Below are positions 32,505-55,625 of a DNA stretch of 64,000 nt, one piece after another. The number at the start of each line of letters is the position of its first letter. Positions within the stretch are counted from its first letter, which is position 1. The stretch covers positions 783-64,782 of the forward strand of contig PLWV01000030.1 in assembly GCA_003153155.1 (NCBI GenBank). The letters run 5' to 3'. Source of the DNA: Gallionella sp. (GTDB taxonomy: Bacteria > Pseudomonadota > Gammaproteobacteria > Burkholderiales > Gallionellaceae). The notes beneath the pieces were generated by a model. The model had not been told where the DNA came from and ran no database searches. It was given only the letters and a program-made list of their open reading frames with translations. The translations under genes and the position numbers were made by a program.

Positions 32505-32655
32505 GGACTACTAGCCATCTGACTAACCCAGCAAAGGACGCTGGGCAAGTCATTGGTTATAGCCATTCCACTAGGCTATCAGCCGAAGAGCTTTTGGCCG
32601 GGCACCCGAAAGACGATAGCCAAGTGGCTGGTTATGGCCGGGCACCCGCGAGACG
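32505..32655 (+). repeat. cluster of two variable-stem palindromes and GHPSEK-type repeats
   Basis: 32512-32560: TAGCCATCTGACTAA, CCCAGC, AAAGGAC, GCTGGG, CAAGTCATTGGTTAT. Directly after, 32561-32635: TAGCCATTCCACTAG, stem GCTATC, a loop enlarged by GAAGAGCTTTTGGCCGGGCA and CCCG, stem GATAGC, CAAGTGGCTGGTTAT. A further GGCCGGGCACCCG unit overlaps the 3' end of the methyltransferase gene and supplies its stop region. Confidence 0.8.
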
Positions 32656-33786
32656 CCACAACGATGTGATCTCCGCCGCACGGGCGGTGTGCAGCGGATC
32701 AGCAGCATCGGAAACCTTGGGATGATGCGGCTTAACATCCATCCGCCCGATCACTTTCAACCCTGCCGCATCGAATGCAGCCAGCATCTCATCTCGAGTA
32801 CGCAGGCCCAGATGCTCGGCTATATCCGAGAGCACCAACCAGCCCTCGCCGCCAGGCTCGAGATGCGCAGCCAGCCCGCTGAGGAATCCGCGCAGCATGC
32901 GGCTGTCCGGGTCGAATATCGCACGCTCGATGGGAGAGTTGGGGCGAGCCGGTATCCACGGTGGGTTACAGACGATCAGCGGCGCTTTTCCTGCGGGGAA
33001 CAAATCGGCTTGCACCACCTCCACCTGTGCACTCAGCCCGAGCCGCGCGATGTTCTCGCGGGCGCACGCCAATGCTCTAGGGTCTTGATCGGTGGCCACG
33101 ATGTGCTTGACTCCACGGCGCGCCAGCACCGCGGCCAGCACGCCGGTCCCGGTGCCGATGTCGAAGGCCAATTCGGTCGAAGGCAGCGGCGCTTCGTTCA
33201 CCAACCCCACATACTCACCGCGCACCGGCGAGTACACGCCATAGTGCGGGTGGATACGCGCACCGAGCGCCGGAATCTCGACGCCCTTCTTGCGCCATTC
33301 ATGCGCGCCGATCAAACCCAGCAGTTCGCGCAGCGACACCACGGAAGGCTCGCTCGGGTGCCCGGACAAAAGCTTTCCATCTCCCGCACCATACGCTTCT
33401 GTGCAGGCTTGCCGCATGTCCGGCGCACGGCGCAGCGGGATGGTGTAATCGCTATCCAGCGACACTAAAATCATCGCCAGCGCGCGTGTGCGTTGCGATT
33501 GTGACTGGCGATGCAGATTGAAAGCCGCGCCAGCCACCTCGGATGTCTTGCGGGGCTTGCGGTCGGCCCGCCGCGACATCGCCAACAACAACTGCCGCGC
33601 GTTCTGAAAATCGCCTTGCCACAACAGTGCAGTCCCCTCGCAGGCCAAGCCATATGCCTCATCTGCCTTCATCGTGTCGTCCGCGATGACCACGCGCTTG
33701 GGCGGCGCTGCGCCACTCTCGGAACGCCATCGGGCGGAGCGCTCCTTGTCTGCCTCAGTCCATCTGATGGTTGGGTGTTCACTCAC
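32632..33786 (-). CDS. class I SAM-dependent methyltransferase (PrmC/HemK-like)
   Basis: 384 residues. The C-terminal half has SAM motif I AFDIGTGTGVLAAVLARRGV, motif II VATDQDPRALACARENI and the amide/amine methyltransferase signature IVCNPPWIPA (NPPW, about residue 272). The N-terminal 160 residues are helical and unassigned. A GDGKLLSGHPSE segment (about 135-146) is encoded by the dispersed GCTTTTGTCCGGGCACCCG repeat in frame, and the last residues and stop also come from a repeat. The substrate could be a protein Gln/Asn or RNA; not determinable. Confidence 0.75.
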   Translation of the reverse strand: MSEHPTIRWTEADKERSARWRSESGAAPPKRVVIADDTMKADEAYGLACEGTALLWQGDFQNARQLLLAMSRRADRKPRKTSEVAGAAFNLHRQSQSQRTRALAMILVSLDSDYTIPLRRAPDMRQACTEAYGAGDGKLLSGHPSEPSVVSLRELLGLIGAHEWRKKGVEIPALGARIHPHYGVYSPVRGEYVGLVNEAPLPSTELAFDIGTGTGVLAAVLARRGVKHIVATDQDPRALACARENIARLGLSAQVEVVQADLFPAGKAPLIVCNPPWIPARPNSPIERAIFDPDSRMLRGFLSGLAAHLEPGGEGWLVLSDIAEHLGLRTRDEMLAAFDAAGLKVIGRMDVKPHHPKVSDAADPLHTARAAEITSLWRLAGARP

Positions 33787-44661: not shown

Positions 44662-48727
<4,066 letters not shown>

Positions 48728-52268: not shown

Positions 52269-54407
52269 TCACTCAAACCAGTTCCGCACCGTCAGCAGCA
52301 CGAACACGCCGATGATCATGGAAAACGCATAGTGATAGATATAGCCGGACTGGAGATGCCGGAGCACTCCGGAAAACATGCCTACCAGCTTCGCCGAACC
52401 ATTCACTATCATTCCGTCGATCAGCTTCACATCGCCGAATTTCCACAGCAAGCGACTCGTACCGCGCGCCCCGCCGGCAAAGAACCAGTCGTTAAAGCGG
52501 TCGAAGTAATATTTGTTGTCCAGCAGGGTGTAGATGGAATGAAAACGCTTTTGAATCGCAGCAGGAATATCCGGGCGCTTCATATAGAAGAACCATGCGG
52601 TCACGACACCCGACAAAGCGAGCCAAAACGGGAGTTCACCCACTGCATGCAAGACCTTTGCCACCGGGTCGAAATGCTCGATGGCCAGCACCGTCATGCC
52701 AGCATGATCAAGCGAAATGTAGATGGCATCTTTAAAAAAGTTGCCAAACAGTAAAGGCTCCATGGTGAAATAACCGATGAAAACTGATGGGATCGCCAGC
52801 ATGATGAGCGGGAATGTCACCACCCATGGCGATTCGTGCGGCTTCTGTCCTGGTGCGAGACCGTGGTGAGGGTCGTCGCCCGATGCTTTCTCCTCGTCAT
52901 GGTCGCCATGCGCATGAGCATCCGTCTGTCCTGAGCCTCCTGAGGTATCGAAGCCTGTCCTAAGCCTTGTCGAAGGGGGCGAAGGATGCACTTGTGTCAA
53001 TTCCGCATTCGCTTCAGCGGATAGCGGATTGCCTGACTTTGTTATGCCAAAACGCTCCTCGCCATGAAACACCAGGAAGTACATACGGAACGAATAAAAT
53101 GCGGTGACGAACACCCCTGCCACCACAGCGAAATAGGCAAACTCGGCACCCGGCAAGGTCGATAGCTCAACTACCTCAATGATGCTGTCCTTGGAATAGA
53201 AACCGGAGAAGAACGGTGTGCCAATCAGCGCCAATGAACCGATCAGAAAGGTCCAATGGGTAATCTTCATGTACTTGCGCAGGCCGCCCATGTTGCGGAT
53301 GTCCTGATCGTGGTGCATGGCGATGATCACGCTACCGGCGGCAAGGAACAGCAGCGCCTTGAAGAAGGCGTGGGTCATCAGGTGGAAGATCGCCACCGAG
53401 TAAGCGGAAGCGCCCAGTGCCACGGTCATATAGCCCAGTTGCGACAACGTGGAATATGCGATCACGCGCTTGATATCGTTCTGGATAATGCCGAGAAAAC
53501 CCATGAACAGCGCGGTGATCGCACCGATGATCATCACGAACGACAGCGCGGTATCGGACAACTCGAACATTGGCGACATGCGCGCCACCATGAAGATACC
53601 GGCGGTCACCATGGTCGCAGCGTGAATCAGTGCGGAGATCGGGGTCGGGCCTTCCATCGAATCGGGCAGCCAGACATGCAACGGAAACTGTGCCGATTTA
53701 CCCATCGCACCCATGAACAGCAATATGCATATCGCAGTAAGCAAATTCACCGACATGCCGGGGATTGGTGCCATATCGGCAGCGTGACTGGCCGCATTGG
53801 CGAACACAGCGGCATAGTCCAGCGTACCGAACACCATCAACACCAAAGCGATGCCCAGCAGGAAGCCGAAGTCGCCGACGCGATTCACCAGAAAGGCTTT
53901 TAGATTGGCGTAAATCGCGGTTTCCTTGTTGTACCAGAAACCGATCAGCAGGTAGGAAACCAGGCCCACCGCTTCCCATCCGAAGAACAGTTGCATGAAA
54001 TTGTTGGCCATCACCAGCATCAGCATGGAGAAGGTAAACAGCGAAATGTAACTGAAGAAACGCTGGTAGCCGGGATCTTCTTCCATATAGCCGATGGTGT
54101 AGATGTGCACCATCAGCGACACAAAGGTGACCACCAGCATCATGGTGACGGTCAGACTATCGATCAGGAAACCAACCTGAAACCTGGCATCACCCGAGGT
54201 CAGCCAGGTATAGACCGGGCCGTTGAACCTATGGCCTGCCTGCACATCGTCGAAAATCACCACAGAGGCAAAGAAGGAAACAGCTACCAGCGCGATAGTG
54301 ATGCGATGCGACCAAGCGCGACCAAGCCACTTTCCGAATAAACCGGCGGCAATCGCCCCGACCAGCGGAGCCAGCGGAACCAGCAGATAAAGGCTTTGCA
54401 TATTCAT
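52269..54407 (-). CDS. nuoL: NADH-quinone oxidoreductase subunit L, with in-frame repeat insertions
   Basis: 712 residues from the ATG at 54407; the track ORF begins inside the MITE upstream. It is the distal antiporter-like subunit with the lateral helix. Conserved are FFGWEAVGLVSYLLIGFWYN, KSAQFPLHVWLPDSMEGPTP and RVIAYSTLSQLGYMTVALG. It is longer than E. coli NuoL (613). After FHGEERF a stretch of about 50-70 residues (GITKSGNPLSAEANAELTQV, HPSPPSTRLRTGFDTSGG) comes from two dispersed repeats, then a His/Asp-rich loop. The AAAGG Shine-Dalgarno sequence is in the MITE end. Confidence 0.95.
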   Translation of the reverse strand: MNMQSLYLLVPLAPLVGAIAAGLFGKWLGRAWSHRITIALVAVSFFASVVIFDDVQAGHRFNGPVYTWLTSGDARFQVGFLIDSLTVTMMLVVTFVSLMVHIYTIGYMEEDPGYQRFFSYISLFTFSMLMLVMANNFMQLFFGWEAVGLVSYLLIGFWYNKETAIYANLKAFLVNRVGDFGFLLGIALVLMVFGTLDYAAVFANAASHAADMAPIPGMSVNLLTAICILLFMGAMGKSAQFPLHVWLPDSMEGPTPISALIHAATMVTAGIFMVARMSPMFELSDTALSFVMIIGAITALFMGFLGIIQNDIKRVIAYSTLSQLGYMTVALGASAYSVAIFHLMTHAFFKALLFLAAGSVIIAMHHDQDIRNMGGLRKYMKITHWTFLIGSLALIGTPFFSGFYSKDSIIEVVELSTLPGAEFAYFAVVAGVFVTAFYSFRMYFLVFHGEERFGITKSGNPLSAEANAELTQVHPSPPSTRLRTGFDTSGGSGQTDAHAHGDHDEEKASGDDPHHGLAPGQKPHESPWVVTFPLIMLAIPSVFIGYFTMEPLLFGNFFKDAIYISLDHAGMTVLAIEHFDPVAKVLHAVGELPFWLALSGVVTAWFFYMKRPDIPAAIQKRFHSIYTLLDNKYYFDRFNDWFFAGGARGTSRLLWKFGDVKLIDGMIVNGSAKLVGMFSGVLRHLQSGYIYHYAFSMIIGVFVLLTVRNWFE
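52926..53043 (-). repeat. two dispersed repeats in frame inside nuoL
   Basis: 52926-52977 is a CTGTCCTGAGCCTCCTGAGG...CCTGTCCTAAGCCTTGTCGA palindromic repeat of a type common in many genomes (one half also in the FimV-like gene). 52994-53043 is GTGTCAATTCC, hairpin CCGC/GCGG, GGATTGCCTGACTTTGTT, the same unit as at 46863 and 48745 and read in the same frame as the ORF at 46815. Confidence 0.8.
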
Positions 54408-54610
54408 AATGAAACCTTTAAAAATCGTAGCGAGCGGTTCGAGAGCAAGGCGCACGGCGCGTTGCATGGCCATTCGACTAAGCTGGCAAAAGAACGCCAG
54501 CCAAGTCGCTGGTCAGCGCAGCGAACGAGACATACCAAATGGGTAGGCGAAGAGCGAGCACCGCGTAACGCCGCTATCGAATCGCGCAGTAGATTTTTAG
54601 AGGTTTCCAT
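54408..54610. mobile_element. MITE-like element, copy 4
   Basis: Ends GAAACCTTTAAAAATCGTAG (left) and GATTTTTAGAGGTTTCC (right) form the same inverted repeat as the other copies, though diverged. The interior differs but contains a variable-stem palindrome (54466-54515: GCCATTCGACTAA, GCTGGC, AAAAGAAC, GCCAGC, CAAGTCGCTGGTCA). It fills the nuoK-nuoL gap, an otherwise tight operon. Confidence 0.7.
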
Positions 54611-54944: not shown

Positions 54945-55625
54945 TTAGTCTTTACGCTCGGACGGGTGCCCGGCCACAAGTTTTTCGGACGGGTGCCCGG
55001 CCAAAAGCTTCTCGGACGGGTGCCCGGCCAAAAGCTTCTCGGACTGCATCGGAACGATACGCAAGCGATCCGCCTTCTTTACCGCAACCTGTTCGGAGAC
55101 CACCTGCGATTTGGCATCTTTGCGACGACGCAAGGTCAGTGCAATCGCGGCCACCATCGCCACCAGCAGGATCACGGCGGCAATCTCAAATGGATACACA
55201 TAGTCGGTATAGATCAAACGCCCCAACTCTTTGGTATTACTATAATCAGCAGCATGTTTGACAGCGACCATGCCATCGGAAGTCTCATGCGAGCCCAGCA
55301 CCCAGATCATCTCAAACGCCATCAAACCGGCCAATGCCGCACCAAATGGCAACCACCGCCAGAATCCTTCGCGCAGGCGCACCAAATTGATATCCAGCAT
55401 CATCACCACGAACAGGAACAACACCATCACCGCGCCAACATACACCAGCACCAGCGTGATGGCGAGGAATTCGGCTTCAAGCAACAGCCAGATGCCGGCG
55501 GAGCTGATGAACGCCAACACCAGGAACAGCACCGCGTGCACCGGATTGCTCGCGGTGATCACACGCAATGCCGCGAACACGATCAACGCCGCGAATACAT
55601 AAAACACGATGGTTTCAAAACTCAT
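54945..55625 (-). CDS. nuoJ: NADH-quinone oxidoreductase subunit J, with a repeat-encoded tail
   Basis: 226 residues; five helices with the conserved [19 protein letters not shown] (about 58-77). The last 30 residues, [20 protein letters not shown] and then [11 protein letters not shown], are three tandem nine-residue units encoded by a 27-bp repeat. Nothing like this occurs in normal NuoJ, and it extends the cytoplasmic C-terminus. nuoK follows after 22 bp. Confidence 0.96.
54959..55039 (-). repeat. three tandem 27-bp GHPSEKLLA repeats at the nuoJ 3' end
   Basis: Units of 27 bp at 54959, 54986 and 55013 (plus-strand form CGGACGGGTGCCCGGCCAAA...). Copies 2 and 3 are identical; copy 1 differs at two positions or so. 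The single unit occurs in amiC, the 32632 methyltransferase, the pyrG leader and the 32505 cluster. Confidence 0.95.

Follow-up and report, generated by a model that had tools for sequence, protein, structure and literature searches.

The repetitive C-terminus of NuoJ in a Gallionella-type bacterium and its probable origin from a dispersed 27-bp element

The gene at 54945–55625 on the minus strand of the window, meaning the whole 64,000-nucleotide stretch analyzed here, encodes a protein of 226 residues that was matched by an NCBIfam equivalog model as NADH-quinone oxidoreductase subunit J (NuoJ), a subunit of complex I. Its 3′ end harbors a tandem array with a 27-bp period, 3.3 copies and 93% matches in TRF analysis (54957–55044). 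All on the minus strand, copy 1 (TCCGAGAAGCTTTTGGCCGGGCACCCG, 55017–55043) and the identical copy 2 (54990–55016) are followed by copy 3 (TCCGAAAAACTTGTGGCCGGGCACCCG, 54963–54989) and then by TCC GAG CGT AAA GAC TAA (54945–54962), which comprises the NNN-GA target side, the native NuoJ C-terminus and the stop codon. The array, placed ahead of the last four codons, thus contributes an inserted peptide of 27 residues from 81 bp. A count of the full 27-mer in the 64-kb window located it in the nuoJ array alone, as two exact copies and one with three mismatches, where dinucleotide shuffles of the window gave an expectation of 0.00. An earlier sequence-only reading had described three tandem 27-bp units encoding (EKLLAGHPS)x3. 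The three units agree with TRF and with the 27-mer count, but the peptide is EKLLAGHPS twice followed by EKLVAGHPS, and then ERKD and the stop.

Single copies outside nuoJ, also proposed in that reading, were borne out at two places on the minus strand of the window: one base ahead of the pyrG ATG (48663–48689) and in frame, as DGKLLSGHP, within a 387-residue ORF (33355–33381). On the plus strand, a further copy lies within the loop of a REP-like hairpin (32582–32608). The pyrG copy is one of several found directly 5′ of start codons, including those of recJ and rnhA (L235, L236, L253 and L279). A 27-mer so placed separates the ATG from any Shine-Dalgarno site and may affect translation. At L281, L252 and L223, the 27-mer either is interrupted between CTTTTG and GCCGGG by an inserted REP hairpin or passes straight into a GTAGGAGCGGGCC hairpin repeat. 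Other repeats were also observed. NuoL (52269–54473, minus strand) has a repeat-like peptide of another kind in frame, HPSPPSTRLRTGFDTSGGSGQ, to which the PSTELRTG peptide of an RsgA-like ORF (G000:C26:61634) is related, and a hemX-like ORF (L261, C20) has a C-terminal NEPKASFEGRP twice in tandem, apparently another coding repeat family. The gap between nuoK and nuoL (54473–54530) contains a REP-like hairpin of the CATTCGACTAAGC type, a family that elsewhere hosts the 27-mer in its loop.

In order to estimate the range of the element, a sequence model was built from 21 copies and matches were counted at E values up to 0.1. The present genome yielded at least 119 matches, a lower bound, and its congeners between 0 and 74, the median over 61 genomes of the genus being 4. 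Among 150 sampled genomes of the order, matches were confined to this genome and one congener, and the other 148, from 90 other genera, gave none. The sequence-only reading's account of one unit shared among loci holds in that the unit is dispersed, and is refined here to a mobile element that is genome-wide and genus-restricted. A phage origin was rejected, as the element core had no exact match in IMG/VR, and a known RNA family was likewise rejected because the sole match was below threshold, attributable to chance and located elsewhere. No description of the element in Gallionellaceae was found in the open-access literature searched.

The element consensus reads G or T, x, CGAAAAACTTTTG, x′, CCGGGCACCCG, in which x and x′ are complementary. 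This pairing is kept in 95 of 97 copies (C/G in 64, A/T in 30, G/C in 1), with two copies not complementary; the covariation could instead reflect two founding subfamilies. Folding as single-strand DNA predicted two hairpins, whose stability was not above that of shuffled controls. The four main variants are open in all six frames, in tandem as well. Because about 10% of composition-matched random 27-mers are equally open in six frames, the open frames need not have been selected. Together with the fixed length of 27 bp, they agree with the earlier suggestion that copy number can change without loss of frame.

The size of the insertion was determined by comparing the flanks of occupied genes with orthologs in relatives. 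In purD, acnA, rnhA, bamC, hisZ, fadJ, ispG, fabZ, ahcY and valS, the occupied gene is longer than its empty relatives by exactly 27 bp, and nuoJ is an eleventh coding site, on the basis of the one-unit gene of Gallionella sp. Chersky.3_41 compared with empty relatives. The compared sites showed neither loss nor duplication of the target, and every coding insert compared was in frame, adding nine residues. NCBIfam models confirm PurD, IspG, AhcY, HisZ, RNase HI, FabZ, ValS, RecJ and AcnA, although the models for ValS, AcnA and one RecJ matched below the whole-protein cut-off, in the case of ValS and AcnA because the compared sequences were partial; the names bamC, fadJ, glnE, hemX and yycJ are from our own reading of the sequence. 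Alignment of RNase HI with an Escherichia coli RNase HI chain from the PDB gave a gap of exactly nine residues at the insert. The REP-like hairpins of this genome provide a non-coding counterpart, with spacers of 32 nt without the element (n = 18) and 59 nt with it (n = 9) between matching flanks. The same 27-bp step in coding sites and non-coding REP loops indicates that the length is a property of the element rather than of selection on reading frame.

Among 72 copies outside REP hairpins, 71 have G at downstream position +4 and 70 have A or G at +5, so that the element inserts 3 nt upstream of G[A/G]; no base preference was seen on the upstream side. At the fabZ site, a C/G-type element is present in genome G027 (L327) and an A/T-type element here (L249), with the site empty in other relatives. 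This pattern reflects either independent insertion into the one site or its conversion. Two compound sites, in a YycJ-like gene (L241) and at a second place in hisZ (L232), are enlarged by 54 bp, the second unit having an inverted 20-nt part. In these two genes and in the yycJ-like gene of genome G079 (L297), the compound copies, 54 or 81 bp long, include stretches of the element (20 nt or 7 nt) in inverted orientation, a hint of hairpin-mediated inversion.

The nuoJ site was followed through 80 named loci and 61 genomes, made up of the present one, 36 congeners and 24 members of other genera of the order. Where NuoJ tails of Gallionellaceae were inspected, most had no insert and ended in ...RIVxMxSERKE or similar. 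Five species have one unit at the same site, with peptides that drift from species to species: EKLVAGHPS in Chersky.3_41, EKPAAGHPS in C10_concoct.bin.22, GKVMAGQTS in Ww243, EKHIAGHAT in SZUA-261 and EKPVGGHPS in GWA2_60_142. The three-unit form is absent from all five and present only in this genome. Unit number is thus 0, 1 or 3 between species, in whole 27-bp steps, with one genome per species. This distribution matches the order of events in the sequence-only reading, insertion followed by tandem growth. An identical tail in distant relatives, which that reading would have taken to imply an older, selected protein feature, was looked for, and the three-unit tail was found nowhere else, while diverged one-unit tails exist. 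On a NuoH-I-J-K-L tree, the five one-unit species are scattered, and the nearest neighbor of this genome, GL140_2_metabinner_122, has no unit. A single clean gain was rejected on the basis of this scatter, which implies either that the site was hit more than once or that one old insertion was followed by several exact losses. Exact loss by slippage would be plausible given the TCCGA repeats that flank the unit.

Taken with the insertion data, we consider it very probable that the NuoJ tail consists of three head-to-tail copies of a genus-specific dispersed 27-bp element, which inserts 3 nt before G[A/G] with no visible duplication or loss of the target. Copy 3 appears to be the older unit and copies 1 and 2 later ones, judging from sequence comparison: copy 3 equals the single copy of Chersky.3_41 over a 25-nt core, including a CTTGTG variant that, of the 101 copies of this genome that were inspected, only copy 3 has. 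The remainder of nuoJ is 89% identical between the two genomes, and 76% at third codon positions. Three sites separate copies 1 and 2 from copy 3. Both copies 1 and 2 carry CGAGAAGC, a variant in no other of the 101 copies, and at the position of the G in copy 3 they have T, the family consensus. Because of this T, copies 1 and 2 probably did not arise by simple duplication of copy 3, and a second insertion beside it followed by one duplication fits better. An ordinary minisatellite history, in which one insertion gave rise to both extra copies by slippage, is possible but somewhat doubtful. It would account for the identity of copies 1 and 2 and the exact period, and another array of three units with the same 27-bp period (C26:52367–52445), all sharing a private AAAGAC, also speaks for it; however, it makes one of the three differences from copy 3 a reversion to consensus, and copy 3 is unchanged from Chersky.3_41 despite the 76% third-position identity of nuoJ. 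The private variants common within the nuoJ and C26 arrays show that duplication occurs too.

The remaining explanations concern what the tail is rather than how it grew. That it serves NuoJ or complex I assembly, with the repeats kept for this purpose, is very unlikely: the frame is preserved and several species share the one-unit form, but the same peptide is present in unrelated enzymes, the one-unit copies have drifted, and most NuoJ orthologs, including the nearest relative on the nuoH-L tree, have no tail. A selected NuoJ feature was therefore rejected on the orthologs. Similarity to solved NuoJ chains moreover stops near residue 183 of 226, which places the tail outside the conserved fold, and nothing points to a function for it. 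The most likely view of the extra 27 residues is that of a passenger peptide which the protein tolerates. An artifact of assembly or binning must be considered for a metagenome-derived draft of 30 contigs whose relatives are mainly MAGs, but is highly improbable, as many genomes that were assembled independently have the family at orthologous sites, its copies differ in sequence, and an 81-bp array is shorter than a typical read. Mitochondrial genes of Magnusiomyces contain short inserts, and similar removal at the RNA level or bypassing in translation might be imagined here, where many essential genes contain short inserts able to form hairpins. Every coding insert compared is nonetheless in frame, stop-free in all frames and, at 27 bp, no different in length from the non-coding copies. 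Bypassing is thus unnecessary, and we regard such processing as hardly credible.

For the array as three copies of a dispersed element, the following course may be proposed. An ancestor would have acquired copy 3 by insertion, after which another element would have landed adjoining it and would then have been duplicated through slippage or unequal recombination. With NNCGA as its first bases and NNNG[A/G] remaining after it, each element keeps a target on both sides, and tandem arrays follow naturally. The lack of a target duplication suggests that the mobile unit acts on one strand, and a single-strand process of the HUH/Y1 type would be a guess at what moves it. Across the genus, the number of copies of the element correlated only weakly (rho 0.41) with the Y1_Tnp (PF01797) count. 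Y1_Tnp is absent from one genome that has 45 copies of the element, and no copy was found near the three Y1_Tnp genes of this genome. In view of this weak correlation and the lack of adjoining copies, a transposase link through Y1_Tnp appears doubtful, an HUH/Y1 enzyme being one candidate.

The element resembles two known systems, Rickettsia palindromic elements (RPEs) and intragenic REPs, in its in-frame entry into genes; size, ends, target and host differ. RPEs were reportedly described by Ogata et al. in 2000. They are dispersed repeats found in frame in unrelated pre-existing protein genes, where their peptides are tolerated (PMC3767692, PMC10969869), and the present element likewise enters pre-existing ORFs in frame, at 11 coding sites compared with empty orthologs. 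However, RPEs are palindromes of about 100–150 bp in Rickettsiales, whereas the element is 27 bp with two small hairpins, and its G[A/G] target and occurrence in one Gallionellaceae genus of the sample set it apart from RPE descriptions. GTAG/CGTC REP repeats are short stem-loops, some of them intragenic and some inverted dimers, and GTAG REPs are linked to RAYT transposases (PMC3733652). The element shares the short stem-loop and intragenic copies, and its 54-bp compound copies resemble the inverted dimers. Its ends, [GT][AC]CG...CACCCG, nevertheless lack the GTAG tag, CGTC is present on its other strand only in the GA type (15 of 97 copies), its stem is 6–7 bp with a 3-nt loop, and no RAYT gene flanked by the element was found. 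Similar to MITEs, it is short, mobile, present in many copies and without genes of its own, but it is far shorter and shows a flush 27-bp step with neither target site duplication nor the usual terminal inverted repeats. The nuoJ array varies between species, one genome each, in whole 27-bp units as VNTRs or coding minisatellites do, yet its unit is a dispersed element that stands singly at more than 100 loci.

We tentatively suggest that the 27-mer might rank with the smallest known mobile DNA elements, as a hairpin unit that is moved in trans and inserts just upstream of G[A/G] with no target duplication, and whose length and open frames convert it into nine-residue peptides in essential enzymes and so provide a natural genus-wide set of loop insertions. 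The occurrence of the same nine residues in many conserved enzymes offers a natural system for protein evolution through small in-frame insertions, for which the empty orthologs of close relatives are a ready comparison. It also raises the question of how a 27-bp sequence with exact ends reaches more than 100 sites. In this iron-oxidizing bacterium, the element often adds nine amino acids to housekeeping proteins without breaking them.
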